A stretch of DNA of 51,956 nucleotides from Meiothermus cerbereus DSM 11376 (GTDB lineage Bacteria > Deinococcota > Deinococci > Deinococcales > Thermaceae): assembly GCF_000620065.1 (NCBI RefSeq), contig NZ_JHVI01000026.1:1-51956 (forward strand). Reading direction: 5' to 3'. The notes under the pieces were generated by a model. It saw only the letters and a list, made by a program, of their open reading frames with translations, searched no databases and was not told where the DNA came from. The position numbers and the translations under genes were made by a program. Below, one piece after another: positions 2,173 to 50,551 of this stretch (position 1 is its first letter; each line of letters opens with the position of its first letter).

Positions 2173-3693
2173 ATGGAAGGTTTACTGATCCATGCGGTGG
2201 TGCGCGAAATAGCCGGGCACCTGCCCTTGCGCAGCCTGGGCTGGGCTTTTCCCGACGAGGGTACGGCGGCCCTGCTGCTGGAGGGCCTGGGCAACCTGGT
2301 GCTGCGCTATCGCCCGCCCCATCCCTTGCTGACGCTGGAGCCGGGCCGCCTCGAGGGCCAAGCCAAAACCCCCTTCCAGCGCCTCCTGGAGGCCCGTTGC
2401 AAGGGGCGCTTGCTCAAAATGGAGCAGCTCAAGCTCGACCGGGTGGTCATGCTGGAGTTTGAGGGCGAAAAGGGTTTTGTGGACACCGCCCCTACCCGGC
2501 TGGTATTCGAGCTGACCGGTCGCAACGCCAACCTGATCCTTTGCGACCAGGAAGGGCAGATTGTGGGCCTCGACCGGCCCGTTACCTCGGCGGTCAATCG
2601 CTTCCGGGAGCTCAGGCCTGGCCTACCCTATACCCCGCCTCCCCCCTACCAGAAGCTCGACCCCCGCACCTTGCAGGCAGAGGAACTCGAGCCCTTTGTG
2701 GGTCAAACCCTCTCGCAGCTCATCAAAAACCTGGACGGGGTGGGCAAGGAGCTGGGGGCCGAACTGGCCCGCCGGGCCCAGCTCAGCCCCCAAACCCCGC
2801 TCAACCCCGAACATCTGCCGCTTATCCACAGGGTTATCCACAGCCTGGTGGAGCAGCCCGGCCTGCAAACCCAGCTCACCGAAGAGCTGCGGCAAGCCTG
2901 GGAGCAGGAAGAGACCGAGGCCCTGCGCAAGCCCCTGCGCGAGGCCCTGCGCCGCCAGCTCAAAACCCTAAAGGCCCGCCTGCAGGACTACACCCGGGCC
3001 TGGGAGCGGCTAGAGGAAGCCCAGCGGCTGCGTCATTGGGCCGACCTGCTGATGGCCTACGGGCACAGCCTGCCGCCAGGGCCGGTGGCTCGGCTCGAGG
3101 ACTTTTCCGGCCAGCCGGTGGAAATTCCTCTGGAAGCGGGCCTTTCGCCCATCCAGAACGCCAGCAACTTCTACGCACGGGCCAAGCGGCTGGAGGCCAA
3201 CGCCGAAAAGGCCCTCGAGCTGATTCCGGCCACCGAGGCCCAGATCGCGGGGCTCGAGCGCGACTTAGACCAGCTCGAGCAACTCCCCCGCCAGACCTTG
3301 CTGGAGCAAAACCGCAAAATCAAGGCCAAAGGCCCCCAGGTGGGGCTTCGCTGCAAAAGCCCCGGTGGCTTTGAGGTCTGGGTGGGCCGCAACAGCAAGG
3401 AAAACGACCTCCTGACCCGCATGGCCCACTCCGAAGACCTGTGGTTCCACGCCCAGGGCCTCCCCGGTTCGCACGTAATCCTGCGCACCCAGGGCCAGGC
3501 CACCAGCCTGTCCGACCTGCTCTTTGCGGCCCAATTGGCCGCTTATTACTCCAAAGCCAGGGGCGAAAAAAACGTGGCGGTGGACTATACCGCCAAAAAG
3601 CACGTCTGGCGGCCCCGCAAGGCGGCCCCCGGCCAGGTGCTCTACACCCAGGGCAGGACGCTTTTTGTGGATGCTGAGCTTCCGGACAGTTGA
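2173..3693 (+). CDS. rqcH: RqcH/NFACT-family ribosome quality control protein
   Basis: This 506-aa protein has the full NFACT layout: NFACT-N domain (about 1-200), a coiled-coil middle rich in Leu, Arg and Glu (about 250-390), and a C-terminal NFACT-R domain containing DLWFHAQGLPGSHVILR (about 423-439). The DR pair that RqcH needs to recruit tRNA is present at D89-R90 (KLDRVVMLEF). RqcH binds stalled 50S-peptidyl-tRNA complexes and adds C-terminal alanine tails that mark the nascent chain for degradation. Older annotations call such proteins fibronectin-binding (FbpA). Upstream are TATACT at 2145-2150 and GGGGAGG at 2161-2167, supporting the ATG at 2173. It is slightly shorter than Bacillus RqcH (about 570 aa), mainly in the coiled coil. 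Confidence 0.9.
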   Translation: MEGLLIHAVVREIAGHLPLRSLGWAFPDEGTAALLLEGLGNLVLRYRPPHPLLTLEPGRLEGQAKTPFQRLLEARCKGRLLKMEQLKLDRVVMLEFEGEKGFVDTAPTRLVFELTGRNANLILCDQEGQIVGLDRPVTSAVNRFRELRPGLPYTPPPPYQKLDPRTLQAEELEPFVGQTLSQLIKNLDGVGKELGAELARRAQLSPQTPLNPEHLPLIHRVIHSLVEQPGLQTQLTEELRQAWEQEETEALRKPLREALRRQLKTLKARLQDYTRAWERLEEAQRLRHWADLLMAYGHSLPPGPVARLEDFSGQPVEIPLEAGLSPIQNASNFYARAKRLEANAEKALELIPATEAQIAGLERDLDQLEQLPRQTLLEQNRKIKAKGPQVGLRCKSPGGFEVWVGRNSKENDLLTRMAHSEDLWFHAQGLPGSHVILRTQGQATSLSDLLFAAQLAAYYSKARGEKNVAVDYTAKKHVWRPRKAAPGQVLYTQGRTLFVDAELPDS

Positions 3694-3780
3694 GTGTGGT
3701 GGCTTTGCATTTGGCTAGACTGCTTAGTGCTCTGGCAACTTAATTCCTGGGATGGATTTAGCTCCTCTAATACCAGATTC

Positions 3781-3814
3781 GGTTAGTTCGTCACCGTTCG
3801 GTGACGAACTAACC
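3781..3814. repeat. Perfect 15-bp hairpin, tetraloop GTTC
   Basis: GGTTAGTTCGTCACC (3781-3795) and its exact complement (3800-3814) flank a 4-base loop. No T-run follows, so it is not a standard terminator, although it is 88 nt past rqcH. It belongs to a mosaic of repeated blocks: 3768-3790 recurs inverted at 15090-15112 (22 of 23 bases), and AACCCGACCGAAG (3811-3823) recurs inverted at 14943-14955. Confidence 0.85.
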
Positions 3815-3820
3815 CGACCG

Positions 3821-3922
3821 AAGGGATACGCTTTCTTCGCCGAGCGCAGCGAGGGGTGTGCTCTAGGATTCAAAAAGATAGCCTCTTAGCGCTTTTTGTT
3901 TGAAGATTATCTTTTTGAATCC
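3821..3922. repeat. Dispersed repeat R1, copy a (MITE-like)
   Basis: Two blocks are shared with 14781-14907 in opposite orientation: one at 3821-3864, ending GAGGGGTGTGCTCT, and one at 3865-3885 (21 of 21 bases), plus GTTTGAAGATTA at 3898-3909. Within it, GGATTCAAAAAGATA (3866-3880) and its perfect complement (3908-3922) form terminal inverted repeats around 27 bases, as in a small non-autonomous element. A TATAAT follows at 3925-3930 on the plus strand, pointing into the 3' end of the antiporter gene. The whole 3694-4001 interval holds no gene. Confidence 0.75.
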
Positions 3923-4001
3923 GGTATAATATCTGGGAGTTGCTTTGAGCGCCTCATTTGGGGGACTTCGTTGCACATCACTTTTTAACTTACCAGACTG
4001 C

Positions 4002-5231
4002 TTAGGGAGAAATCCCAGCCTCATCCTCGGCGCGAACCCGCAACCAACGGGCCGCCAAGGGCAGGGTGGTTCCCTGAACCAGCACCGAGAACAACACCAC
4101 AAAGAAGGTCACGTTGAAAATCTTTTGTGCCGATTCAACCCCGGCCAACAAGGGAAAGGTAGCCAGTACGATGGGAATGGCCCCACGCAAGCCCACCCAG
4201 GAAACAAAAGCTTTCTCGTTGAAGGCGAAGCGCCGGCTGGGTAGGCTGAGGAAAACCGCCACAGGCCGGGCCACCAGCATCAGAAAGAGTGCCAGCAAAA
4301 TGGCCCCTACCGCCACCGAGGGGAGTTGGGAGGGAAAAACCAGCAGACCCAGGGTGAGGAACATCCCAATCTCCATCAGCCAGGTGTTACCTTCGTGAAA
4401 GGCCAATAGCGCCGTCTTGCGGGGAAAGTCGCTGTTGCCCACCACCACCCCCGCCACATAAGCCGCCAAAAAACCACTGCCACCCAGCACGGCGGTGAGC
4501 GAAAACACCAGGAGCATCAGCGCAACCGACAAAACCGCATACAGCCCATCGAAGCTAAGCCGGATGTTTTTCAAGGCCCAAGCCGCCGCTCGCCCCAGGC
4601 CATACCCCAGTAACAAGCCCAACAGCATCTGCTGGACAAACATGGGCAGAATCTGCCAAGCGTTCATCTCGGGGCGGGTCAGGAGGGCGGTCAGGCCGAT
4701 GGTAAGAAACACCGCCATGGGGTCGTTGGTGCCCGACTCGAACTCAAGCAAAGGCCGCAGATGCTTGCGCAGGCGCACCGCCCGCTCGCGCAGTACGCCA
4801 AAAACCGCGCTGGCATCGGTACTGGAAACAATGGCTCCCAATAGAAGGGCCTCGAGCCAGCCCCAGCTCAGGGCCCAGTAGGCAAATGCCCCGGTCAGCA
4901 GCATGGTTAGCAATACCCCAAAGGTGGCCAAGGATAAGCCAGCCCCCAGTACTGGGCGTACCGTGTTCCAGCGACTGAGGAGTCCGCCCGAATAAAGGAT
5001 GAAGATAAGCGCCACCGTACCTACGAGCTGAGCAGCGTAGTAGTTATCGAACCAAATCCCTCCTGGCCCATCGCTCCCGGCCAGCATCCCGATAACCAGA
5101 AACAACAGCAGTCCCGGCACCCCAAGCCGCCCCCCGAGCTTGGTGGCCAGCACGCTGAGGAGCAGCAGAGTGGCGGCAACTAGCAGAAGGGTCTCTGGTC
5201 TCGGCAAATACACCTCCACATACCCCGGCAA
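4002..5231 (-). CDS. NhaP-type cation/proton antiporter (CPA1 family)
   Basis: A 409-aa membrane protein with about 12-13 hydrophobic segments. Family motifs are clear: LGVPGLLLFLVIGMLAGS near the start, IVSSTDASAVFGVL (about 135-148) and FESGTNDPMAVFL (about 163-175). The last carries the ND pair typical of electroneutral CPA1 exchangers. A late SWVGLRGAIPIVLA motif (about 340) is also present. It exchanges Na+ or K+ for protons across the inner membrane, for pH and ion homeostasis. The E. coli K+/H+ antiporter NhaP2 (about 578 aa) has an additional cytoplasmic TrkA-C-type domain that is absent here, so ion choice is uncertain. It is followed on the same strand, upstream, by the FAH-family gene, 80 nt away. 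Confidence 0.85.
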   Translation of the reverse strand: MPGYVEVYLPRPETLLLVAATLLLLSVLATKLGGRLGVPGLLLFLVIGMLAGSDGPGGIWFDNYYAAQLVGTVALIFILYSGGLLSRWNTVRPVLGAGLSLATFGVLLTMLLTGAFAYWALSWGWLEALLLGAIVSSTDASAVFGVLRERAVRLRKHLRPLLEFESGTNDPMAVFLTIGLTALLTRPEMNAWQILPMFVQQMLLGLLLGYGLGRAAAWALKNIRLSFDGLYAVLSVALMLLVFSLTAVLGGSGFLAAYVAGVVVGNSDFPRKTALLAFHEGNTWLMEIGMFLTLGLLVFPSQLPSVAVGAILLALFLMLVARPVAVFLSLPSRRFAFNEKAFVSWVGLRGAIPIVLATFPLLAGVESAQKIFNVTFFVVLFSVLVQGTTLPLAARWLRVRAEDEAGISP

Positions 5232-10766: not shown

Positions 10767-12047
10767 TCAGGTTTCCCTCTCTAAAGCCTTCAGGGAGGCC
10801 TGGTACAGTTTATCGATGTCGGTCTCCCCTGTTTCGAGCTGGTGGTCGTAGGCGGCCTGAAGCATCCGGCTGAAGATCTTGCCAGGCTGGTGTCCCCGCT
10901 CAATTAGGTGGCGACCTAGCAAAATGGGCTTTACCGGTATGGGCTGGGGTTCAAAAAACTTCCAGGACTCTTTGGGCCGACGCTCGGCTCCGTCCGCTTC
11001 ATAAAGGGCTTTCAGGGCAGGCAAATGCGGCCCGGCCTGGGCCTGAAACTTGCGGATGGCCTGAGGGGTGGGCCTGGCAAAGACCGGCACCATGTGTAAA
11101 GCGGTGGTAACCACCAGCTCGTCCCGCAGGTGGTTGGGCAGGCGCAGGTCGCGGGCAATGCGGGGGATCAGGGCTGCACCCACCCGCTCATGGCCGTGAA
11201 AGCTGTACCAGCCCTCGGGCCTCCATTGGGCGGTATCTTTTTTGCCGATATCGTGCAGCAGGGCGTGCCAGCGATAGGGGGGCGCGGCCCGATCCACCAC
11301 CTGCAACACATGGGTCAGCACGTCCCCTTCGGGGTGCCAGCGGGGGTTTTGCAAGAGCAGGTGAGTATCTTCGAATTCGGGGATAAGCCGCTGAAGAATA
11401 TCGAGATCGTATAAGTAGCGCAGGAACCGGCTAGGAACACCGTTCTCAAAAGCCTTGTTGAACTCCGCCGTAACCCGCTCGATGGCTACGTGGGAAAGCA
11501 CCTCTGGCGCAGCTTCACGGGCGGCCTGTAGGGTGGCCGGTTCTATCTTAAAGCCATAGCGGGCAACAAAGCGACCGGCCCGGATAACCCGCAGATAGTC
11601 CTCACGAAAGCGCCGGCGAGGTTCGCCCACGGCCCTGATCAGGCCGGCCTCGAGGTCCTGCTGTCCCCCATAGGGGTCAATCACCCGACCTGAAGCGTTC
11701 ATGGCGATAGCCCCGATGGTGAAATCACGCCGGGACAGGTCTTCCTCGATGCTTTTGCCCCAGGCCACCCGGGCCCTGCGACCAAAGGTTTCCACGTCGC
11801 GGCGAAAGGTGGTGACCTCGTAGGGGTGGTGGTCAATCAGGATTGTTACGGTACCATGTTCGATTCCGGTGGGAATGGCCTCGAGGCCATGGGCTTTGGC
11901 CAGGCGCATCACCTCCTCCGGGGGCGCTGAAGTGGCAAAATCCAGGTCTTCGGGCTTCTGGCCCATCAAAATATCGCGCACCGCACCCCCCACCAAGTAG
12001 AGGTCGGGCAAAAAAGAAAGCTTTTGCAGTATGGGGCGAAATTCCAT
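10767..12047 (-). CDS. cca: Class II tRNA nucleotidyltransferase (CCA- or CC/A-adding) with HD domain
   Basis: 426 aa. The head is a class II nucleotidyltransferase: LVGGAVRDILMG (19-30) followed by EDLDF with D34 and D36 as metal ligands. The flexible-loop and template motifs follow: EEDLSRRDFTIGA (101-113) and REDYLRVIRAGRF. A C-terminal HD phosphohydrolase domain is present (H246, HDIGK at 265-269). The family repairs or builds the 3' CCA of tRNA. In some Deinococcus-Thermus-related lineages CC- and A-adding activities reside in separate proteins, so which activity this one has is open. It is transcribed with the neighbouring minus-strand genes but with 27-80 nt gaps. Confidence 0.85.
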   Translation of the reverse strand: MEFRPILQKLSFLPDLYLVGGAVRDILMGQKPEDLDFATSAPPEEVMRLAKAHGLEAIPTGIEHGTVTILIDHHPYEVTTFRRDVETFGRRARVAWGKSIEEDLSRRDFTIGAIAMNASGRVIDPYGGQQDLEAGLIRAVGEPRRRFREDYLRVIRAGRFVARYGFKIEPATLQAAREAAPEVLSHVAIERVTAEFNKAFENGVPSRFLRYLYDLDILQRLIPEFEDTHLLLQNPRWHPEGDVLTHVLQVVDRAAPPYRWHALLHDIGKKDTAQWRPEGWYSFHGHERVGAALIPRIARDLRLPNHLRDELVVTTALHMVPVFARPTPQAIRKFQAQAGPHLPALKALYEADGAERRPKESWKFFEPQPIPVKPILLGRHLIERGHQPGKIFSRMLQAAYDHQLETGETDIDKLYQASLKALERET

Positions 12048-41272: not shown

Positions 41273-43060
41273 TCAGCCGGGCTGGTAGAGTCGAGCCTGC
41301 AAGCCCCAGAGCTCGGCATAGGTTCCGCCTCGCTCGAGCAGGGCCCGGTGGGTTCCCTCCTCCACCAGGCGGCCCTCCCGCAGCACCAGAATCCGGTCGG
41401 CCATCTGCACCGAGGCCAGCCGGTGGGTGATGAGCAGCACCGTCTTGCCCTGGGCCAGCTCTGCAAAGCGTCCGTAGAGGTGGGCTTCCTCTTTGGGGTC
41501 GAGGGAGGCGGTGGGCTCGTCGAGGATCAGAAGCTCCGCCTGACGGAAAAAAGCCCGGACAAGGGCGAGCCGCTGCCACTCCCCTAAAGACAGCTCCGTA
41601 CCCCCGAAAGCTTTGGAGAGAAGAGCCTCGGCACCCAGCCGCCGCAGCAGTTCCGAAGCGCCCCCGGCGCGGGCAGCCTCTTCCAAACGCCCAAGGTCAG
41701 ATTGGTGCTCTAAATCCGCAAGGACAATGTTTTCCCGCAGCGTCAGTGCGTAGCGACCAAAGTCCTGGAACACTGCCGCCACCAGGCGCCACCAGGCCTC
41801 CAGGTCTAATTCCCGCAGGTCTACCCCATCCACCAAAATACGGCCCTGGCTGGGGTCGTAGAAGCGGAGCAGAAGCTTAACCAGTGTGGTTTTACCGGCC
41901 CCGTTCTCCCCCACAATGGCCAACCGCTCCCCCCGACGCATTACAAAGGAGATCCCCTCCAACGCGCGCCGGCCATCTGGGTAGTTAAACCCCACGTTTT
42001 CAAAGCGAATCTCCTCAAAGCCCCGCACCATTCGGCCTGCGTTTGAAGGGGCCAGCGCAGAGGAGCGGGCCAGGAAGCCCTCGAGCCGTTCGAAGTACAG
42101 AAGGCTCTCGTATAGCATGCCCCCGTCCTGCACCAAGCCGTAGAGGTTTTGCTGCAGGCTCCCCACCGACTGTAACAAGAGCACCAGGCTCCCCAGCCCG
42201 CTCGCGCCCGAGAGGGCCTGACGCAGGCCTAGGTACAGCGCTGCCGCCGTGGCCAGAGCGCTGACAAAAACCAAGCCGCTGGCCCCCAGGGCCTGCCGCC
42301 CGCGCGCGCGGCGGAGCTCTTGGTATAGCCGCCCAAAAGCCTCGAGATAGCGCCCACGGAAAAAAGGAAGCAGCCCAAACAGGCGCACCTCCTTGGCCGC
42401 CTCGGGGTTGAGCAAAGTCTCGGCATAGTAGCGCATCCTGCGGGCCTCGGGAGCGCTGAAGAGCACCGCCTCCCACACCCCTTTTTGCAACCTGAAGGTC
42501 AGCAGCGCTTGGGGCAGGGTGGCCAGCAGCAACAACAAGGGGAAAACAGGGGCCAACGTCAGGAGCAAGAGCAGCACCCCGGCCACAGCAATACCCCCAC
42601 GAAAGGCATTGCCGAAAAAAACCAACAGATTGAGCGGCTGATAGGGTGCTTGATCGCGCAGCACCTGAAGCTCATCGTAAAAACCAGCGTCCTCAAAGGG
42701 GGTGAGATCGGGCAGGCCGGCTGCTTTCTCCATCAGCAGTAGGTGTACCCGGGCGGTGAGCTTTTCGTTCACCGAACCCTGTAGGTAGGCCACCCAGGGC
42801 ACCAGCAAAAAGTCGAGGGCAAACAGCAAGGCCAGCCCTAAGAGCGGCCCTAGCAACGCAGTTGTAAAGGCGCCGCTGCCCAACCCATAGGCCAAACCGT
42901 CTACCAAAGCCCGCGTCGCGCTTAACACCCCCACCGGTATCAGGCCGCTTGCGGCAAGGAGGCCCACCAAGAGGGTGGCCTCGAGGGGGGCCGCTCGAAA
43001 AACCTGCCGCAGCGCCGGAACGATTTGGCGTAACAGGGAGCGCCTATGAGCCAGTCGCAA
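41273..43060 (-). CDS. ABC exporter, fused permease-ATPase
   Basis: 595 aa. A six-helix exporter domain (about 20-320) and an ATPase domain: Walker A VGENGAGKTT (about 389-398), Q-loop VFQDFGRY, signature LSLGEWQRLALVRA (about 495-508), Walker B LLILDEPTASLD and switch H in ITHR. The signature reads LSLGE in place of LSGGQ; the GEWQR variant is common in exporters of bacteriocins and other modified peptides. No peptidase domain is fused. It overlaps the preceding 183-aa gene by 17 bases, so both are one unit. A peptide substrate is inferred from the neighbours. Confidence 0.82.
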   Translation of the reverse strand: MRLAHRRSLLRQIVPALRQVFRAAPLEATLLVGLLAASGLIPVGVLSATRALVDGLAYGLGSGAFTTALLGPLLGLALLFALDFLLVPWVAYLQGSVNEKLTARVHLLLMEKAAGLPDLTPFEDAGFYDELQVLRDQAPYQPLNLLVFFGNAFRGGIAVAGVLLLLLTLAPVFPLLLLLATLPQALLTFRLQKGVWEAVLFSAPEARRMRYYAETLLNPEAAKEVRLFGLLPFFRGRYLEAFGRLYQELRRARGRQALGASGLVFVSALATAAALYLGLRQALSGASGLGSLVLLLQSVGSLQQNLYGLVQDGGMLYESLLYFERLEGFLARSSALAPSNAGRMVRGFEEIRFENVGFNYPDGRRALEGISFVMRRGERLAIVGENGAGKTTLVKLLLRFYDPSQGRILVDGVDLRELDLEAWWRLVAAVFQDFGRYALTLRENIVLADLEHQSDLGRLEEAARAGGASELLRRLGAEALLSKAFGGTELSLGEWQRLALVRAFFRQAELLILDEPTASLDPKEEAHLYGRFAELAQGKTVLLITHRLASVQMADRILVLREGRLVEEGTHRALLERGGTYAELWGLQARLYQPG

Positions 43061-43595
43061 CCACCTCCCGGTTTGCCTCTCTAGCCCAACGCCCAGGGTT
43101 TATGTAGTTTGAGGCAATATGGGCCCACTCTTCAGAGGTAATCGGGCAAACTTCCTCGACAATATACCTTTTCCGCATGGGCTTTGCGGAGTCGTGACGC
43201 AGGATTGCCTTATGCCCCTCAGGAACCTCTACTATCACGAAAGATTCACCTTCTTCATCCCACTCCCAAATCGGTACCCTGCCTGCCAAGGCATAAAAGG
43301 CACCCCTGTTCTCATCAAGATTTCGAGCATGCATGCTTGACGGACAAAGCCAACAAGACGTGCGGTATTTCCCGCAAGCCACTACCTCGAGGGGTCGAAC
43401 GTAGTAGCGAAACTTGTACACTTCACCAAAGAAGATCAAAGAAGGCTGCTCAAATGGATGAGCAATGTTGCCCCCTTGTGGATCAAGGACGTAGGCAAGT
43501 TCCGAGCTAGGTTCTAGACGAACAACCAGACCAAAATCGTCCCGCACTTCAACCCAACCGTTCAAAGTTCTGAGCTGGTCTCCGACGCTCAGCAC
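43044..43595 (-). CDS. Unknown 183-aa protein in peptide-export unit
   Basis: I do not recognise this family. It starts at GTG 43593-43595, six bases after the stop of a 29-codon ORF, and overlaps the ABC exporter gene by 17 bases. The protein is beta-rich at the N-terminus (GWVEVRDDFGLVVRLEP). A CWLCPSSMHARN segment (C-x2-C, about residues 82-93) could bind metal or form a disulfide. The C-terminal half is charged with several Trp residues (IWEWDEEGESF). No signal peptide or membrane helix. Base composition is lower in GC than the core genes. Its place suggests a processing, immunity or peptide-binding role for an exported peptide. Confidence 0.6.
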   Translation of the reverse strand: MLSVGDQLRTLNGWVEVRDDFGLVVRLEPSSELAYVLDPQGGNIAHPFEQPSLIFFGEVYKFRYYVRPLEVVACGKYRTSCWLCPSSMHARNLDENRGAFYALAGRVPIWEWDEEGESFVIVEVPEGHKAILRHDSAKPMRKRYIVEEVCPITSEEWAHIASNYINPGRWAREANREVVATGS

Positions 43596-43691: not shown

Positions 43692-43754
43692 GGCCGTAAA
43701 CCCCCTTTCACTTTTAGCCTGTACTAAAGGCACTTTCACCCTAGCACCCCCCAC

Positions 43755-43827
43755 GTAACCAAACCCCCTCTCAGAATGGTTACGTTCTTAACTCATTTTG
43801 GTTACCTTCCCTCTCATATTGGTTACC
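43755..43827. promoter_or_regulatory. GGTTAC site array, copy 1
   Basis: TGGTTACG at 43777 and TGGTTACC at 43799 and 43820 are direct repeats 22 and 21 bp apart, plus an inverted GTAACC at 43755-43760. Sites two helical turns apart on one face of DNA are typical of cooperative activator binding. The array lies between the plus-strand peptide gene (43850) and the minus-strand unit starting at 43691, where TAGGGT (43738-43743) is a candidate -10 box. Confidence 0.6.
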
Positions 43828-43849
43828 TTGCCCTTGCAAGGATGGAGGT

Positions 43850-43990
43850 ATGCGCAGGGTGAGGTGGTTTTTGTTGTTGCTGATTCTGCTGGCTTTGGGT
43901 TGGAAGGAGTTGGGCTACGCCTGCACCCGCCCCGACTGTGTTCCACCGGGGGTGGTGCGCTCGGGGGAGGCTAGCGGTACTGGGCGCTGA
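43850..43990 (+). CDS. Small secreted two-cysteine peptide, copy 1
   Basis: 46 aa: a basic start (MRRVRW), a hydrophobic core (FLLLLILLALGW), then KELGYA and CTRPDCVPPGVVRSGEASG with Cys at 25 and 30. Cleavage after GYA (Gly at -3, Ala at -1) would release a 22-residue peptide beginning with Cys. AAGGA stands seven bases before the ATG. The second copy differs at only two residues (Leu10 to Ser, Val35 to Ala), so the frame is kept. It may be a pheromone-like signal or a bacteriocin. No known family recognised. Confidence 0.6.
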   Translation: MRRVRWFLLLLILLALGWKELGYACTRPDCVPPGVVRSGEASGTGR

Positions 43991-44010
43991 GCCGCCGCAC
44001 CCAGGCCCGC

Positions 44011-44184
44011 AAAGCGGTGGCGATGCTCAACCACCTTTTGCTTGCGTTACGAGCCTTTCTGAGGTTGGAGCTGTATCGGTTGAAGACGGGAGTGAGCTGG
44101 TATGAGGCCAAGACCGCGATAGTTCGCGACGCCATCCGAACCTACCTGGCTCGTCCTATCTATGAGCTTGTCTCAACTGCGTAA
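44011..44184 (+). pseudogene. IS4/IS701-like transposase C-terminal fragment
   Basis: 57 codons, open from the junction with the direct repeat, ending in TAA: VAMLNHLLLALRAFLRLELY, then TGVSWYEAKTAIVRDAIRTYLARPIYE. This is the helical tail of an IS4-superfamily transposase. No N-terminal part is present. It marks the recombination point where copy 1 of the direct repeat ends. The remaining bases to 44297 hold only a 28-codon minus-strand frame that I could not support as a gene. Confidence 0.7.
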
Positions 44185-44297: not shown

Positions 44298-45068
44298 TTA
44301 GTGGGTTCCCAGCGTGCCTTGTCGCCGCGCGCTGCGGAGCGCACGTCGAAAGAATACAAGCCCCAGCACCAGGTACGCCAGGGCGTTGACCCCCGACAGC
44401 ACCAAGAGGCTCCACTCGGGAACCTGCTCCCGCCCAAGGATGAGGCGCAAGGCACCCACGGAGGGGGTTAGGGGCAGGAGGTAGCCGAGGTCGCCCCAGG
44501 GCCGGGCCAGGGCTTCGAAGCGGATGAGGAAAAGACCCAACAGAGGGAACTGCAAGATGCTGATGAGCTGGCCCAGCCGCTTATAGATCAAAGCCAGACC
44601 GCCTAGCAGAAGCCCCAGCCCCAGCGCGCCCAAGGCCAAGGTCAACAGCGGTAACAGAATGAGCCAATCGAAGTCCAGCCGGGCTCCCGAGACGAGGGTG
44701 ACAGCCAGGAAAAGCGGGATGTTCAAAAGGCCCATCTGCAGCAAGGAGAGTGCAGATCGCGTCAAGACCACACCCAACAGGCCAGGGCGGGTGAGGGCCA
44801 GCTGCTCCAGGATGCCGGACAAAGCCTCCTCTGCCAGGGTGGAGGCGATATGGGAGAGAAGGGAGAGGGCCAAAGTCCAGGCCAGGAGGCTCACCACCAG
44901 GGTCTCCAGGCGATCTCCGAAAAAGGCGGGGCCGGCCAGGTAACGGGCCCCGTAAATAAAGAGGGTGAAGACCATCAGCACGCCCAGAAAGCCCCCAAGT
45001 AATTCCATCGGATAGCGACTAAGAGCCTTCAAGAAGCGCCAGAGCTCTATGTAGACCCACTGGAGCAC
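44298..45068 (-). CDS. ABC-2 type exporter permease
   Basis: 256 aa with six hydrophobic segments in the ABC-2 arrangement: a cytoplasmic start MLQWVYIELWRFLKALSRYP and a final helix in VLSGVNALAYLVLGLVFFRRAL. The middle region LAEEALSGILEQLALTRPGLLGVVLTRS is the coupling segment that contacts the ATPase. It overlaps the ATPase gene by 22 bases. This type of two-protein exporter often gives self-protection against, or release of, peptides. It is the last gene of the unit starting with the 83-aa peptide. Confidence 0.83.
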   Translation of the reverse strand: MLQWVYIELWRFLKALSRYPMELLGGFLGVLMVFTLFIYGARYLAGPAFFGDRLETLVVSLLAWTLALSLLSHIASTLAEEALSGILEQLALTRPGLLGVVLTRSALSLLQMGLLNIPLFLAVTLVSGARLDFDWLILLPLLTLALGALGLGLLLGGLALIYKRLGQLISILQFPLLGLFLIRFEALARPWGDLGYLLPLTPSVGALRLILGREQVPEWSLLVLSGVNALAYLVLGLVFFRRALRSARRQGTLGTH

Positions 45069-46000
45069 GGCTTCCTCCTCTCCCTGAGTACGCGCCAGAA
45101 AAGCCCTGCTAGGGATAGGCTCTCTCGCTCCACCCGGTCAATGGGCAAGGGGTCCAGGACTCTGAGGACCTCCCAAAGGGTTTCTTCACCCACGATCCGA
45201 ACCACCCTTCCCTCCACTTCGGCCCCCAGGGCTTGCAGCCGCCCCAGGCGCAAATCGCCCTCGTCTAGGAGGAGTGCCAGCTCTATGCGGTAGACCGCCC
45301 GTGGGGAGCCTTGCAGCACCTTTTGGGTCTCTCCCTCCAAGGCCACCTCTCCCTCCAGGAGGATGGCCACCCGGTTGGCCACCGCCTCGGCCAGATCGAG
45401 CTGGTGGGTCGTGAGGAGGATCGCCTTGCCGTCTATTCCCAGCTTTAGAAGCCAGGAGCGTATGGCCTCCTGAGCCTCGAGGTCCACCCCCAGGGTGGGT
45501 TCATCCAGGAAGAGAACGGGGGGGTCGTGCACCAGCGCAGCAGCCAGGGCGACCCGCTGCTGCTGGCCTCGAGAGAGGGTGCCTACGGTCTGGTGGGCTT
45601 TATTCTGCAGACCGATCACCTCCAGGAGTTCCAGGCCCCTCCGCCGGGCCTCTTTGGGGGCGACGCCGCGCAGGGTGCCGAAGTAGATGAGGTTCTCCAG
45701 GGCGGAAAGGCGCCAATACAGGTTGCGGTTACCCTCCAGCACCGCTCCCAACCAGGTTCCCTGGCCTTCCCGCAAAAGCTCCACCCTCCCCTCGTCGGGC
45801 TCTACCAAGCCCGCCAAGATTTTGACCAGGGTGGTCTTTCCGGCTCCGTTGGGTCCCAGAAGGGTTAGGATTTCCCCCTGACGGAGTTCCAGGTCGACCC
45901 CCTTCAGGGCCTCGATCCAGCTCTTTCCCTGAGGGTAGCGCTTGCGCAGGCCGCGGGCCCATAGGGCTGGGCTAGGGGAGGACCGTACGCTCGGGTGCAT
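45047..46000 (-). CDS. ABC-2 exporter ATP-binding protein
   Basis: 317 aa. Walker A LGPNGAGKTTL (about 48-58), signature reading LSRGQQQRVALAAAL (LSRGQ in place of LSGGQ, about 142), Walker B VLFLDEPTLGVD and the switch histidine in LTTHQLD. The C-terminal 100 residues form the accessory domain usual in CcmA/DrrA-like ATPases. Seven bases separate it from the M29-like gene. It drives the adjacent permease, probably for a peptide or for resistance to it. Confidence 0.87.
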   Translation of the reverse strand: MHPSVRSSPSPALWARGLRKRYPQGKSWIEALKGVDLELRQGEILTLLGPNGAGKTTLVKILAGLVEPDEGRVELLREGQGTWLGAVLEGNRNLYWRLSALENLIYFGTLRGVAPKEARRRGLELLEVIGLQNKAHQTVGTLSRGQQQRVALAAALVHDPPVLFLDEPTLGVDLEAQEAIRSWLLKLGIDGKAILLTTHQLDLAEAVANRVAILLEGEVALEGETQKVLQGSPRAVYRIELALLLDEGDLRLGRLQALGAEVEGRVVRIVGEETLWEVLRVLDPLPIDRVERESLSLAGLFWRVLRERRKPCSSGST

Positions 46001-46007
46001 AAGCAGC

Positions 46008-46988
46008 TCACGCGACGAGGACGTCCTTCATGCCTGGGCATATGAAATCTATGTGGGCGCCTGTAACCCCGTCACCTACGGCGAAGTGGACACCGCGGGC
46101 GCCCTCATTGAGAACAGAGTTCACGCTCCAGTCGAGTTCCGAAGCCTCTAGACCAGGATTGTTGCTGATTGCCATCTCCACCAACATAAGTTCAAGCTGA
46201 GGATTGGAGAGTTCCGCTATTTCATCTGTTAAATTTGTTCCATCCGAAGATCGTACCTGTTTCACTTGAGAATTCTCAATTGTGACGCTCAGTGGGAATC
46301 TTCCATCCCTGACGAGTCCACCCAACAACTCCCATGCTCTTTTTGGAAGAATAGTGAGTGGCTCGGGCATGATTCTATGGTGTGCAATGGCGACCCCTGG
46401 AACCGTCACTTCGCCATTTACCAAAAAGCCGGGATGGAAGAAATCTTCATTATCTGGGATCATCGCTATTTCGAAGAACATACCTATAGCTTCCCACTCA
46501 CCTGGTAGCAAGCCTGCTTGTGTGCGAGGCAGCATGAGGTCTAATCCTTCCTTAAGGATAACCTCTAGCTCACCGTACATCCCCTTGAAGACAAGGCGCT
46601 TGATGTCACTGTTCTCCAAGACAGAAACCCACCTATTGTTTTCCTTAGTGGCCGCAGCGAAATCTGAAGAGGCAATCAATTTGACTGTATATTTAGCTGC
46701 CTCAAAAGAAGGATCAAAAGCAACCAGAGGCACAATAAGAACTCGGCTACTTTTGAAAAAGCGCTCTAGCTTGAAGAAAGAGAGGCCGTTGCCGGTAGTG
46801 GGCAAGAGAACTATGTTCTTGCGCCGATGTTTTGGTAAGTCGGCAACTTCATCCAGGAGGAAGGCTCCTATAGCGTGACTTTTCAGCCAGGAAGCAATGT
46901 CGATGGAGTCCGTGACTAGAAGGGGTTTAGCAGAGCCGAAAACGTGGGCCAAAGCCTGTTCTAGTTTGACCTTCAATCCTTGTTCCAT
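46008..46988 (-). CDS. M29 aminopeptidase-like protein, shortened
   Basis: 326 aa. The C-terminal half follows aminopeptidase T/M29: a NGEVTVPG strand (Glu193), SVTIENSQVKQVRSSDG, LVEMAISNNPG (Glu271), GVHFAVGDG (His301), and GAHIDFICPG (His312, Asp314). The metal-ligand order and spacing fit. But the stretch between His301 and His312 is about 20 residues shorter than in known M29 enzymes (about 410 aa), so the region expected to hold the catalytic tyrosine is missing. It may trim the 83-aa peptide, or be an inactive peptide-binding version. AGGAGG five bases upstream supports ATG 46988. GC content is lower than in core genes. Confidence 0.5.
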   Translation of the reverse strand: MEQGLKVKLEQALAHVFGSAKPLLVTDSIDIASWLKSHAIGAFLLDEVADLPKHRRKNIVLLPTTGNGLSFFKLERFFKSSRVLIVPLVAFDPSFEAAKYTVKLIASSDFAAATKENNRWVSVLENSDIKRLVFKGMYGELEVILKEGLDLMLPRTQAGLLPGEWEAIGMFFEIAMIPDNEDFFHPGFLVNGEVTVPGVAIAHHRIMPEPLTILPKRAWELLGGLVRDGRFPLSVTIENSQVKQVRSSDGTNLTDEIAELSNPQLELMLVEMAISNNPGLEASELDWSVNSVLNEGARGVHFAVGDGVTGAHIDFICPGMKDVLVA

Positions 46989-47050
46989 CACTGCCTCCTA
47001 GGATGGGACTGCAGCCGCAACACCGCAACAATAGAGCCTTATCTAAATCC

Positions 47051-47302
47051 TTAGATCCCAGCCGTACAAGGGCAGCTCACCAGGGGGGCACGGGGAGAGC
47101 CTACACCATTGGCCTGCGAAAGCCACTTGTAACTGACCGTGTAGCCGTAACCAAAAACGCCCACTATAGGCTTGTTTGAAGGTGCCTCTCCAACACTGCA
47201 AAGTGGATCGGAATAAGGCCTTGAGGTCTTCGTGTGGTGGCCCTCTGCGACGAACCTAAGCAAACGTGGGGCATTTAGCTTGAGCTCCAAAGTTTTCTCC
47301 AT
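47051..47302 (-). CDS. 83-aa cysteine-containing peptide, candidate RiPP precursor
   Basis: The first gene of the minus-strand unit, starting at ATG 47300-47302 with AGAGAGG eight bases upstream. The N-terminal third is charged and helical (MEKTLELKLNAPRLLRFVAEG), like a leader. The C-terminal part is Gly-, Tyr- and Ser-rich (VGVFGYGYTVSYKWL) and ends PLVSCPCTAGI with a CPC pair. No signal peptide. It is followed by an M29-like protein and an ABC-2 exporter, an arrangement that suggests a ribosomally made, processed and exported peptide. No known precursor family was recognised. Confidence 0.5.
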   Translation of the reverse strand: MEKTLELKLNAPRLLRFVAEGHHTKTSRPYSDPLCSVGEAPSNKPIVGVFGYGYTVSYKWLSQANGVGSPRAPLVSCPCTAGI

Positions 47303-47346: not shown

Positions 47347-47364
47347 ATGCTTAGCATCCTTCAC

Positions 47365-47457
47365 GTAACCAAACCCCCTCTCAGAATGGTTACGTTCTTA
47401 ACTCATTTTGGTTACCTTCCCTCTCATATTGGTTACCTTTTGACGGTTTTGGTTACC
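47365..47457. promoter_or_regulatory. GGTTAC site array, copy 2
   Basis: An inverted GTAACC at 47365-47370 is followed by TGGTTACG at 47387 and TGGTTACC at 47409, 47430 and 47450. Spacing is 22, 21 and 20 bp. BTAD/SARP activators bind direct repeats near -35 positions, and such a regulator is encoded next door, so these are its likely sites. They lie between divergent peptide units. Confidence 0.6.
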
Positions 47458-47479
47458 TTGCCCTTGCAAGGATGGAGGT

Positions 47480-47620
47480 ATGCGCAGGGTGAGATGGTTT
47501 TTGTTGTCGCTGATTCTGCTGGCTTTGGGTTGGAAGGAGTTGGGCTACGCCTGCACCCGCCCCGACTGTGTTCCACCGGGGGCGGTGCGCTCGGGGGAGG
47601 CTAGCGGTACTGGGCGCTGA
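47480..47620 (+). CDS. Small secreted two-cysteine peptide, copy 2
   Basis: 46 aa, differing from copy 1 only at Ser10 and Ala35. Same signal-like segment and predicted mature 22-mer (CTRPDCVPPGAVRSGEASG, then TGR). AAGGA is seven bases upstream of the ATG. Its last 20 bases overlap, tail to tail, the end of the TPR/BTAD regulator gene. A short exported peptide beside a TPR regulator recalls the peptide/receptor gene pairs of RRNPP quorum-sensing systems, although the regulator family here is different. Confidence 0.6.
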   Translation: MRRVRWFLLSLILLALGWKELGYACTRPDCVPPGAVRSGEASGTGR

Positions 47621-49205
47621 GCCGCCGCACCCAGGCCCGCACCGCAGGATGGCGGGGGTCTTGCGGGGACAGGCGATGTAGGAGGGCCTCCCAGAGGGTA
47701 AGGTCGTCCGGGATTTGCTGGGCCAGGCGGTAGAGCAGCTCGAGGTCGGGGTGTTGCAGCACGGCCTCTTTGAGCTGCTCTTCGATGCGGTGGCGCAAAA
47801 GCTCGATGCCCGGGGCCTGGCTTCTGGGCAGGAGGGGGCCCTGGTAGAGGTTGAGGGCCTCGGAGAGCCGGTTTTGTTCCAGGGCTTCCTGGAGCTTGAG
47901 GAAGTCGGCCCCGATGGGGCTAAGGAGCCGGTAGGGGCGGCTCTGCACTTCCAGGCCCTGCTGGCGCAGGCGGCAGAGCTCGCTCCGGAGGGCCTGGGGG
48001 TTGGGCGTGGGGTAGAGCGCCTGGGCCAGCTTCTCCCCTTCGATCCCCTCAGGGTGGGCCAGCAGCAGGGTGATGAGTTCCAGGCTGCGGGGCCTTAGGG
48101 CAGGGTAGCCCTGGAGTTGGGCTTTGCCCAGGGTTTGCAGGTAGGGGGCGGCCTGGGTAAGCGGGAGTTCCGCCGGCAGGAAGAGGGCCCGGGCCTCGGG
48201 GCGGAGGGCCTGGGCCAGGCGGCGGTAGGGCTCGGGAAGGGGCTCCCCGTTGAGTGCACAGAGGTGGGCCACCGCCCGCAGGGCCTCCTCCGCCCCCTCG
48301 GCTTCCAGGGTGGGGAGGCTCTCCTTCAGAAGGGGGCGGGCCTCGGGCGCTGGGTAGCGGTAGAGCCCTTCGGCCAGCAAGAGCAGGGCCTGGGGCAGGG
48401 CTTGGCTGGAAGGCTGGGCTTTGGCCGCCCGCAGTCGGCGGGCCACGAGCGTCTGTTGGGAGGAATGGCCTTTGCAGAGCCGCACCAGGAGGGGCAGGTC
48501 GTAGGCCAGCAGGTGGGGGTTTGGGTTATGTTCCCAGAGGGTCTGCAGCAGTTCCGGGCTGGCCTCCCCCTGCATCCCCTGCAGCAGCAGGCTGAGCCAG
48601 AGGGCGTAGTAGCGCACCCCCGGGGACGGATGGGCCAGCAGCGGGGGGAGGGTCTGCGCCAGCGCAGCGAGGGGCTCCTCTCCGGCGTAGGCCAGCAGGG
48701 TGAGCTCCTCCAGGCGGTAGTAGGGCTGCCCGGGGGCCAGGAGGGCGGCCAGGCTGGCGTAGGAAAGAGCCTCCGCAAAGCGCCCCAGTCCCCGCAGGGT
48801 GTGGGCCAGGGCATAGGCCAGGCGAGCCTGCTCCTCGGCGGGGGCGCCCTGGGCTTGTAGCTGCTGGAAGGCTTCTCGCAGGGCCAGCAGGCCATCGGCG
48901 GGCGGGAGCGAGAGGCCCAGGTGGTAGAGCGTCAGGGGGGTCTGGGCCGCCTGGGCGGCGGCCAGGGCCAGGCGGCGGTAGGCGGCGTGGTCGCCCTGCC
49001 GGAAGGCGGCGAAGCCCAGGAGGGCCAGGCGTTCGGCGCTTTCTGTCTCCTCCCGCGGCGGCCAGGCCTCCAGCAGGGCTGCGGCCTCGGCAGGCTTTCC
49101 CAGGGCCAGCAGGGCCAGCGCGGCGGTCTTGGGCTCGCCCTGCTGCTGGGCCAGGGCCAGGGCCTCGGCGTAGTGGCCCCGATGGTAGAGGGCCAGGGCG
49201 TCCAT
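47601..49205 (-). CDS. TPR regulator with C-terminal winged helix and BTAD-like domain
   Basis: 534 aa. Residues 1 to about 340 are tandem TPR-like helical hairpins (ALYHRGHYAEALALAQQQGE; KTAALALLALGKPAEAAALLEAW; RFAEALSYASLAALL). About 366-430 is an OmpR/SARP-like winged helix (LRPRSLELITLLLAHPEGI... LRSELCRLRQQGLEV...YRLLSP). About 432-490 is BTAD-like (DFLKLQEALEQNRLSEALNLYQGPLLP), with a short helical end. In Streptomyces SARPs the DNA-binding domain is N-terminal; here it follows the TPR domain. The start is fixed by TATACT ending six bases before ATG 49205. It is convergent with, and overlaps, the small peptide gene. Confidence 0.8.
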   Translation of the reverse strand: MDALALYHRGHYAEALALAQQQGEPKTAALALLALGKPAEAAALLEAWPPREETESAERLALLGFAAFRQGDHAAYRRLALAAAQAAQTPLTLYHLGLSLPPADGLLALREAFQQLQAQGAPAEEQARLAYALAHTLRGLGRFAEALSYASLAALLAPGQPYYRLEELTLLAYAGEEPLAALAQTLPPLLAHPSPGVRYYALWLSLLLQGMQGEASPELLQTLWEHNPNPHLLAYDLPLLVRLCKGHSSQQTLVARRLRAAKAQPSSQALPQALLLLAEGLYRYPAPEARPLLKESLPTLEAEGAEEALRAVAHLCALNGEPLPEPYRRLAQALRPEARALFLPAELPLTQAAPYLQTLGKAQLQGYPALRPRSLELITLLLAHPEGIEGEKLAQALYPTPNPQALRSELCRLRQQGLEVQSRPYRLLSPIGADFLKLQEALEQNRLSEALNLYQGPLLPRSQAPGIELLRHRIEEQLKEAVLQHPDLELLYRLAQQIPDDLTLWEALLHRLSPQDPRHPAVRAWVRRLSAQYR

Positions 49206-49217: not shown

Positions 49218-49334
49218 GCAAGCCGTACCCCTCCCCACTTGAGGCTCGGGAACGAATGCAAAACTTTTGTCTGGTGCGGTTGTGGAGAGAACAGGAACAA
49301 CCAGCTCTGCCAAGGCCAGCATCAGCAAAGTGGA

Positions 49335-49356
49335 ACATTTCAGAATGTGGTACGAT
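49335..49356 (+). promoter_or_regulatory. Promoter and operator of AbrB/PIN pair
   Basis: TACGAT (49351-49356) lies six bases before the ATG at 49363. Just upstream, ACATT (49335-49339) and AATGT (49344-49348) form an inverted repeat with a 4-base centre, a likely site for autoregulation by the AbrB-type antitoxin. Confidence 0.45.
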
Positions 49357-49362
49357 TTCATT

Positions 49363-49632
49363 ATGAAACACCCCGTGGTGCAACAAGCCGTACAGCTAGG
49401 GGTCAAAGGGCGCCTGGTGCTACCCGCTGGGGTGCGTAGGGTTTTACGGCTGCGGGAGGGGGATCGTCTGCTGTTGCGGCTCTGGGACGATGGGGTGATC
49501 GAGCTGGTCAAGGCGGAGGAAGTTGTGCTGGGAAGCAAGGGTCTTTTGCAACGCCTCTACCCTGCTTTGAAGGAAAAAGCGCTGGCTCAAGAGCTGATCC
49601 AGGAACGGCGCAGGGAGGCCCGGCAGGAATGA
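49363..49632 (+). CDS. AbrB-type (VapB-like) antitoxin
   Basis: 89 aa. Residues about 12-55 form a SpoVT/AbrB swapped-hairpin DNA-binding domain: LGVKGRLVLPAGVRRVLRLREGDRLLLRLWDDGVIELV. The C-terminal helix (about 60-89, rich in Lys, Glu and Arg) would wrap the toxin. ATG 49363 follows a TACGAT box by six bases, so the message is leaderless; a longer frame would start inside the regulator's upstream region. It overlaps the PIN toxin gene by four bases (ATGA). Confidence 0.85.
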   Translation: MKHPVVQQAVQLGVKGRLVLPAGVRRVLRLREGDRLLLRLWDDGVIELVKAEEVVLGSKGLLQRLYPALKEKALAQELIQERRREARQE

Positions 49633-50027
49633 GCGTGGTGCTGGATGCCTCGGCCTTGCTGGCCTACCTCAACCAGGAGGCGGGGGCCGAGGAAGTCGCT
49701 CGGCAGATGGTTGGAGGCGGCTTTATTAGCGCCGTCAATCTGGCCGAGGTTTACAGCAAGGTGACCGAGTGGGGCCAGGACGCGCACCTGCTGGAGCAGG
49801 CCCTGGTGCGGCAGGGTTTGCTGGGGGGTGTGTTGGAGGTGGTGCCCTTCGGCCCTGAAGACGTTCACCTCGTGGCAACGCTACGACCCCTGACCAAAGC
49901 CCAGGGGCTATCCCTGGGGGATCGGGTCTGTCTGGCCTTGGCTATGCGGCTGAAACTGCCAGCCATCACCACCGACAGCGCATGGAACAACCTGGAGGCA
50001 GGAGTTGAGGTGCGGGTCGTGCGTTAG
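49629..50027 (+). CDS. vapC: PIN-domain ribonuclease toxin (VapC)
   Basis: 132 aa. The four acidic PIN positions are present: D6 (VVLDASALLAYL), E40 (NLAEVYSK), D98 (LSLGDRVCLALA) and D116 (ITTDSAWNN). VapC toxins cut RNA, often tRNA or rRNA, when released from the antitoxin. It is paired with the AbrB-type gene by a four-base overlap. Its end overlaps by four bases the convergent comM fragment, showing that the module was inserted next to or into that degraded gene. Confidence 0.88.
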   Translation: MSVVLDASALLAYLNQEAGAEEVARQMVGGGFISAVNLAEVYSKVTEWGQDAHLLEQALVRQGLLGGVLEVVPFGPEDVHLVATLRPLTKAQGLSLGDRVCLALAMRLKLPAITTDSAWNNLEAGVEVRVVR

Positions 50028-50551
50028 GGCAAACCCCGCCGGTAGGTCAGCGCCTCCGCCAGGTGGGCCTCCTGGATGCGCTCCGACCCCGCGAGGTCGG
50101 CGATGGTGCGGGCTGTCCGCAGGATGCGGTCGTAGCTCCTTGCGGTGAGGGCTAAGCGTTTAGTAGCCGCTTGCAAGAGGGCTTCACTGGAGGGGGAAAG
50201 CACCGTGTGCTGGCGCAGCGCTCTACCGAAGAGTTCGCTATTGAGCTTCCCCTGGCGGGCCTTCATCCTCTCCCTTGCCGCCAGCACCCGTTCCCGCACC
50301 GCGGCGGTGGACTCCCCTTCGGGGGCCCGGGACAGCTCCTGCGGCGTCAGGCGCGGCACCTCTTCGCTTCCTAAGGGCAGCCAGGTCAGGGCTTGCAGGT
50401 CGGGACCAAGAAGTTGACGGTCTTTACAGCTCTTTGCCCTAGATGGAAGCTCCAAAGCCACGGGTGCGATAAGCCCGATTTTGTGCACCTCCAGGGCCTT
50501 GCTCAGGGGTTGCTTGACCCGACCGGCCCCACTGGGATGATTAAGACTCAA
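50024..50551 (-). pseudogene. comM/yifB C-terminal fragment in a chimeric frame
   Basis: From about 50370 down to the stop the minus-strand frame matches the C-terminus of ComM/YifB Mg-chelatase-like AAA+ proteins: VPRLTPQELSRAPEGESTAAVRERV, LNSELFGRALRQH, LTARSYDRILRTARTIADL, and IQEAHLAEALTYR. Intact proteins are about 500 aa, with an N-terminal lon-like domain and Walker motifs; none of these is here. The first 60 codons are unrelated. In ComM the full protein is a helicase that helps integrate DNA in natural transformation. This copy cannot work; an intact one may exist elsewhere. Confidence 0.75.

Follow-up and report, generated by a model that had tools for sequence, protein, structure and literature searches.

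By the comparative sequence evidence set out here, a cassette of a small-peptide gene, a regulator gene and an array of direct repeats is probably a peptide-based quorum-sensing (self-induction) switch over operons that make and export a modified peptide. The cassette lies in a stretch of 51,956 nucleotides from Meiothermus cerbereus DSM 11376 (contig NZ_JHVI01000026.1; hereafter the window). An earlier note on this DNA had proposed a new peptide-signalling pair. That is still the best-supported reading and is now strengthened by conservation of the pair; the conserved part of the peptide, the targets and the kinship to RRNPP regulators are revised below.

The peptide gene (47480–47620, + strand) encodes 46 amino acids, MRRVRWFLLSLILLALGWKELGYACTRPDCVPPGAVRSGEASGTGR, in which a hydrophobic, signal-like N-terminus is followed by the core CTRPDCVPPG. 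The regulator gene (47601–49205, − strand, 534 aa) faces it tail to tail, and the two 3′ ends share 20 bp; both ORFs and their overlap are as first described. The N-terminus predicts that the peptide is secreted, and searches of Pfam, NCBIfam and PADLOC with it gave no match. A lipobox is not consistently present in the peptides, in which a cysteine stands close to where cleavage may occur. Comparison of family members showed that, of the 22-mer to which the earlier note had drawn attention, only the first ~10 residues (C-x4-C-x-[PS]-P-x) are conserved, and some peptides end right at this core (CLDLGCWPPRG, CFRSECMPPGH and QCLAPHCPPL, each followed by the stop codon). There are 19 distinct ten-residue cores, and they differ between regulator subgroups. 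For the Meiothermus peptides dN/dS was 0.28 in the ten-residue core and 0.46 overall, and the same analysis of other reading frames mostly gave ~1.1, except for one reverse frame at 0.59. Codons 40–46, which lie in the 3′ overlap, have few changes, dN/dS ~1 and no protein-level bias. These substitution patterns indicate that the peptide evolves as a protein, under purifying selection outside the overlap.

The regulator had been described as TPR repeats, a winged helix and a BTAD-like domain. The TPR part is supported by a weak Pfam TPR_2 match (E=0.0014), by matches in 9 of 15 orthologues, and by a single-sequence model in which much of the N-terminal ~200 residues forms helical hairpins, with pLDDT mostly 70–92. 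The full-length single-sequence fold reached a pLDDT of 57, a low overall confidence, and its Foldseek matches were generic TPR and helical-repeat proteins. The winged-helix/BTAD-like C-terminal end is supported only indirectly. A model of the last 200 residues has three helices and a two-stranded wing (H-H-H-E-E), then further helices; its wing part resembles winged-helix domains (1lva, 4hqe and 6uvu) at Z~6, and its helical part is similar to numerous proteins of the TPR type, NprR and Rgg144 (Z 6–7) among them, a likeness that is not diagnostic for helical repeats. HTH_11 was matched in 2 of 15 orthologues, and Trans_reg_C and BTAD gave sub-threshold Pfam matches in distant relatives of the C-terminal domain only; in the orthologues themselves neither Pfam family was matched. 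With the C-terminal model, Foldseek found nothing at E≤0.001, and a second structure comparison gave middling Z scores only, with BTAD proteins absent among the matches; searching the sequences of solved structures for the regulator returned nothing useful. This C-terminal region is common to larger regulators throughout the Deinococci and to GAF-containing regulators elsewhere. In another Thermales family (L164), a regulator of 881 aa that shares this C-terminal domain (2554–5199, −) adjoins a protein that by eye is radical-SAM-like (1220–2434, +).

The earlier note had named conservation of a small ORF beside homologous regulators as the check on its proposal, and such an ORF was found across genera of these hot-spring bacteria. 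We applied a fixed-rule scan to the ends of 39 related regulators, taken from genomes of the Meiothermus type, from Thermus and from two more genomes of Thermales; at 36 of them it detected a small ORF on the opposite strand whose hydrophobic N-terminus is followed by C-x4-C-x-[PS]-P. The same scan matched 5 of 498 control gene ends, all five being further copies of the same peptide family, and the remaining ~490 had none, which argues that the pairing is not due to chance. Of the regulators without a match, L105 comes near with QCLAPHCPPL, whereas L102 and L104, both Thermus, have no recognisable peptide. In a direct search at E≤1e-10 the peptide was found in 11 of 50 family genomes, each time with a regulator relative adjoining it that was intact, split by a contig end (G004) or internally deleted (G006); strong full-length regulator orthologues (73–85% identity) have the peptide tail to tail. 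Thermus regulators are 45–52% identical, and their peptides, too divergent for direct search, keep C-x4-C-x-P-P after a hydrophobic stretch, with the cores CWRPDCFPPA, CWDPNCVPPA, CWSPDCFPPG, CLAPHCPPPG, CLDLGCWPPR and CFRSECMPPG. Single genomes of two other Thermales families have CNNPQCVSPG (G067) and CKSPDCLPPS (G095, listed with 9% contamination, which makes its placement uncertain). Some members have the peptide gene up to ~210 bp from the regulator end, without overlap.

The pairing is specific to this regulator clade rather than to all TPR-wHTH proteins, since a regulator paralogue in the same genome (G000:C10) has no peptide of this type. Direct search of a plasmid collection with the peptide gave no match; with the regulator it gave mostly relatives of the C-terminal domain, except on two Thermus thermophilus plasmids. 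Phage relatives likewise share the C-terminal domain only, viral contigs had no relative, and annotated T. thermophilus homologues are labelled 'hypothetical protein'. Extra peptide copies also occur in Thermus away from the clade regulator (L114, ~4650–4980, and L122, ~5700; QCLAPHCPPPGPGL and QCLAPHCLPPGGGF), and these are possible orphan signals.

Between the peptide gene and a divergent operon lies the putative operator (47364–47459): four direct TGGTTAC repeats, spaced by 22, 21 and 20 bp with starts at 47387, 47409, 47430 and 47450, accompanied by a single inverted GTAACCA at 47365. With one mismatch allowed, TTNGGTTACCTT matched five times in the window against 0.6 expected. The pattern GGTTACSTTN{8,18}TGGTTACC was found in 10 of the 18 genomes of the genus, exactly the ten that have the peptide, and in none of the eight that lack it; for fully independent genomes such a distribution would arise by chance once in 43,758, but these genomes are only partly independent. 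Every site lay at a peptide locus, apart from one orphan operator; the control with the reversed pattern had no match in any of the 18 genomes, and in the genome studied here the pattern occurs only at the two peptide copies. Thermus loci have the variants GGTTACG and GGTAACG. At L087 (~5100) an orphan operator precedes an operon of the C5-ABC type described below, the peptide/regulator pair being gone. The GGTTAC array is a candidate binding site of the regulator.

Across the operator from the peptide, on the regulator's strand and facing away, are operons that the earlier note had left unmentioned and that are the likely targets: divergent, RiPP-like biosynthesis and export operons. Across the loci they encode radical SAM/SPASM proteins, PqqD, an S24-like peptidase, exporters of the ABC and MFS types and families that Pfam does not match (C8 and C5); one locus (L095) combines radical SAM, PqqD, S24 and ABC genes, and at another (L096) a 78-aa ORF rich in Cys precedes a DUF4135 protein, of the LanM N-terminal type. 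The divergent operon in the window opens with a precursor-like ORF of 83 aa (47051–47302, −) with the C-terminus SCPCTAGI, conserved in two other loci; the three proteins share the C-terminus CPC-x2-GI. It is followed by C8, a 327-aa protein of no known family (46008–46991, −) that within the family is found in five genomes only, all with the cassette, and then by an ABC transporter ATPase (45047–46000, −; DrrA-like by its best NCBIfam match, below the cut-off) and an ABC-2 type permease (44298–45068, −; Pfam match below the cut-off). The 83-aa ORF and C8 possibly represent an undescribed RiPP class.

The window also holds a second cassette copy, overlooked before, at 43742–44011, comprising operator, peptide gene and the last ~14 regulator codons (91% DNA and 96% amino-acid identity). 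Its operator (43754–43829) has three direct TGGTTAC repeats and an inverted GTAACCA; the peptide gene is at 43850–43990 (+, 96% amino-acid identity) and the regulator remnant, ALRAWVRRLSAQYR and its stop codon, at 43971–44012 (−). Divergent from this operator, an operon begins with C5, a 183-aa protein without Pfam or NCBIfam match (43044–43595, −), and also includes an ABC exporter in which the membrane and ATPase domains are fused (41273–43060, −). Pfam, NCBIfam and PADLOC searches with C8 and C5 returned no match; the window's own two operons have precursor-like ORF and ABC exporters, and a known RiPP-modifying enzyme is absent from them. In Thermus, many loci have on the divergent side a gene for a beta-propeller-like protein or transporters only, without an evident RiPP enzyme. 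Decaying duplicates of the cassette are common; another copy, at L087 ~11124–11600 (G018), has a frameshifted peptide tail and a regulator cut down to its last ~128 residues.

Three loci (L093, L094 and L095) are 96–97% identical over a stretch that starts ~100 bp upstream of the peptide and takes in the regulator, and beyond this they carry C8, C5-ABC and radical-SAM operons, respectively, joined at the operator. The same cassette with different operons means that the peptide tracks the regulator and operator, not any one enzyme set. As read from these junctions, peptide, operator and regulator make up a control cassette that stays constant while the RiPP-like cargo under it can be swapped. 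In the window a pair of MazE-type antitoxin and PIN-domain toxin genes (49267–50027, +) lies immediately upstream of the regulator, and similar toxin–antitoxin genes flank the cassette in several relatives. The C-terminal part of a Mg-chelatase-like (ComM-type) gene (50024–50551, −) lies beside the island, and at L089 a ComM-like 496-aa ORF directly follows the regulator; the cassette thus sits at the comM region in several genomes.

The proximity of a small Cys-containing peptide to radical SAM, PqqD and LanM-like genes and exporters would also suit a different reading, in which the peptide is itself a RiPP or bacteriocin precursor, its C-x4-C core modified by the radical-SAM, LanM or peptidase proteins of the divergent operon, with the regulator controlling production. 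We mark this down to an improbable alternative because the cargo swaps and the peptide stays: nearly the same peptide stands beside the three entirely different operons just described, some without a known modifying enzyme, and it always accompanies the regulator, not the enzymes. Moreover, several operons contain better precursor candidates (the ORF at 47051–47302 in the window and the 78-aa ORF that precedes the DUF4135 protein at L096), and the N-terminus of the peptide is Sec-signal-like, unlike a RiPP leader. Unlikely too, if slightly less so, is a role in the producing cell, as a membrane or exported immunity factor, a lipoprotein or a small toxin that is co-regulated with the operon, the TPR regulator sensing something else. 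The short hydrophobic N-terminus, the cysteine near a possible cleavage site and the shared operator region, which would give such co-regulation, agree with this role; however, immunity should follow the cargo and the peptide follows the regulator, the conserved part is a ~10-residue extracytoplasmic core that varies by regulator subgroup, and the lipobox is inconsistent.

That the small ORF is a functionless by-product, its frame held open by constraint on the operator and on the 3′ end of the regulator gene, is largely refuted and to us barely credible. The behaviour of codons 40–46 is what the regulator's constraint would produce, but purifying selection acts outside the overlap, the Cys motif is constant across genera despite divergent DNA, and some of the peptide genes stand clear of the regulator altogether.

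For the quorum-sensing switch, we infer a course of secretion, trimming, re-import, TPR binding and activation of both promoters. The pro-peptide would leave the cell by way of its signal sequence and be cut down to a short form that keeps the C-x4-C-x-P-P core. This short peptide would accumulate and return through an importer for oligopeptides (Opp-type); six SBP_bac_5 (OppA-type) genes, a generic type, are present in the genome. Inside, the peptide would bind the N-terminal TPR superhelix of the regulator, whose winged-helix/BTAD-like part would then bind the GGTTAC direct repeats at their ~21-bp spacing and activate both the peptide gene, in positive feedback, and the divergent operon.

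The RRNPP type of intracellular peptide quorum sensing (Rap, Rgg, NprR, PlcR and PrgX) has been described from Gram-positive bacteria; its proteins have a C-terminal TPR-type peptide-binding domain and an N-terminal Xre-type HTH, absent only in Rap. In the regulator studied here the repeats are N-terminal and weak by sequence, the TPR-like N-terminus has no HTH_3-type match, and an adjacent small gene with predicted secretion is found at the 36 loci counted above. Because the N-terminal Xre-type HTH is absent, the system is not RRNPP by membership; it may well work like RRNPP. The genes of Group III Rgg/SHP pairs are convergent with overlapping ends, and in S. thermophilus most SHP/Rgg pairs control radical-SAM RiPP operons (PMC13361665, PMC12445099). 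As in the streptococcal Rgg/SHP-RaS-RiPP systems, a small, predicted-secreted peptide is paired here with a TPR-containing transcription regulator, the gene pair is convergent with overlapping 3′ ends, as in Group III, and the adjoining operon has, in relatives, a radical SAM enzyme and exporter. In contrast to Rgg/SHP, the predicted DNA-binding part is C-terminal and winged-helix/BTAD-like rather than an N-terminal Xre-type HTH, a C-x4-C-x-[PS]-P core is conserved in the peptide, the host, one of the Deinococcota, is diderm, and the putative operator is a ~21-bp direct-repeat array.

SARP/BTAD regulators of the AfsR and EmbR type, from Actinomycetota, have a winged helix followed by BTAD, act at direct-repeat operators about two helical turns apart and control biosynthesis genes. 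The regulator would resemble them in a winged helix with BTAD-like helices behind it, as suggested by the model and the Z~6 matches, and in direct repeats, here putative binding sites, that strictly co-occur with the pair. Its domain order is reversed, the TPR sensor being N-terminal, and we know of no SARP/BTAD regulator with a cognate secreted peptide. GAF-containing regulators (for example at Nocardiopsis locus L007 and among mycobacterial plasmid proteins) have a homologous C-terminal DNA-binding region (~29–40% identity), and their sensor domain is GAF, unlike the TPR here. In the open literature on Thermus and Deinococcota no such system was found under RRNPP, SARP or BTAD, nor under quorum sensing or peptide pheromones; an earlier account in subscription papers or preprints is possible.

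The cassette has the look of a peptide-based system for signalling between cells, hitherto undescribed and lying outside the Gram-positive bacteria. On balance we lean towards a new peptide quorum-sensing family in a diderm thermophile phylum, with C-x4-C-x-P-P pheromones of several specificity types, TPR-wHTH/BTAD receptors and a portable control cassette whose operator is the splice point for unrelated RiPP-type operons. The cassette marks the sites of undescribed RiPP-like operons, and the short conserved core makes testing with synthetic peptides simple. If the proposal is true, Thermus and Meiothermus would have a second, independently built version of the same circuit, a case of convergent evolution, and there would be signalling peptides for a model thermophile genus.
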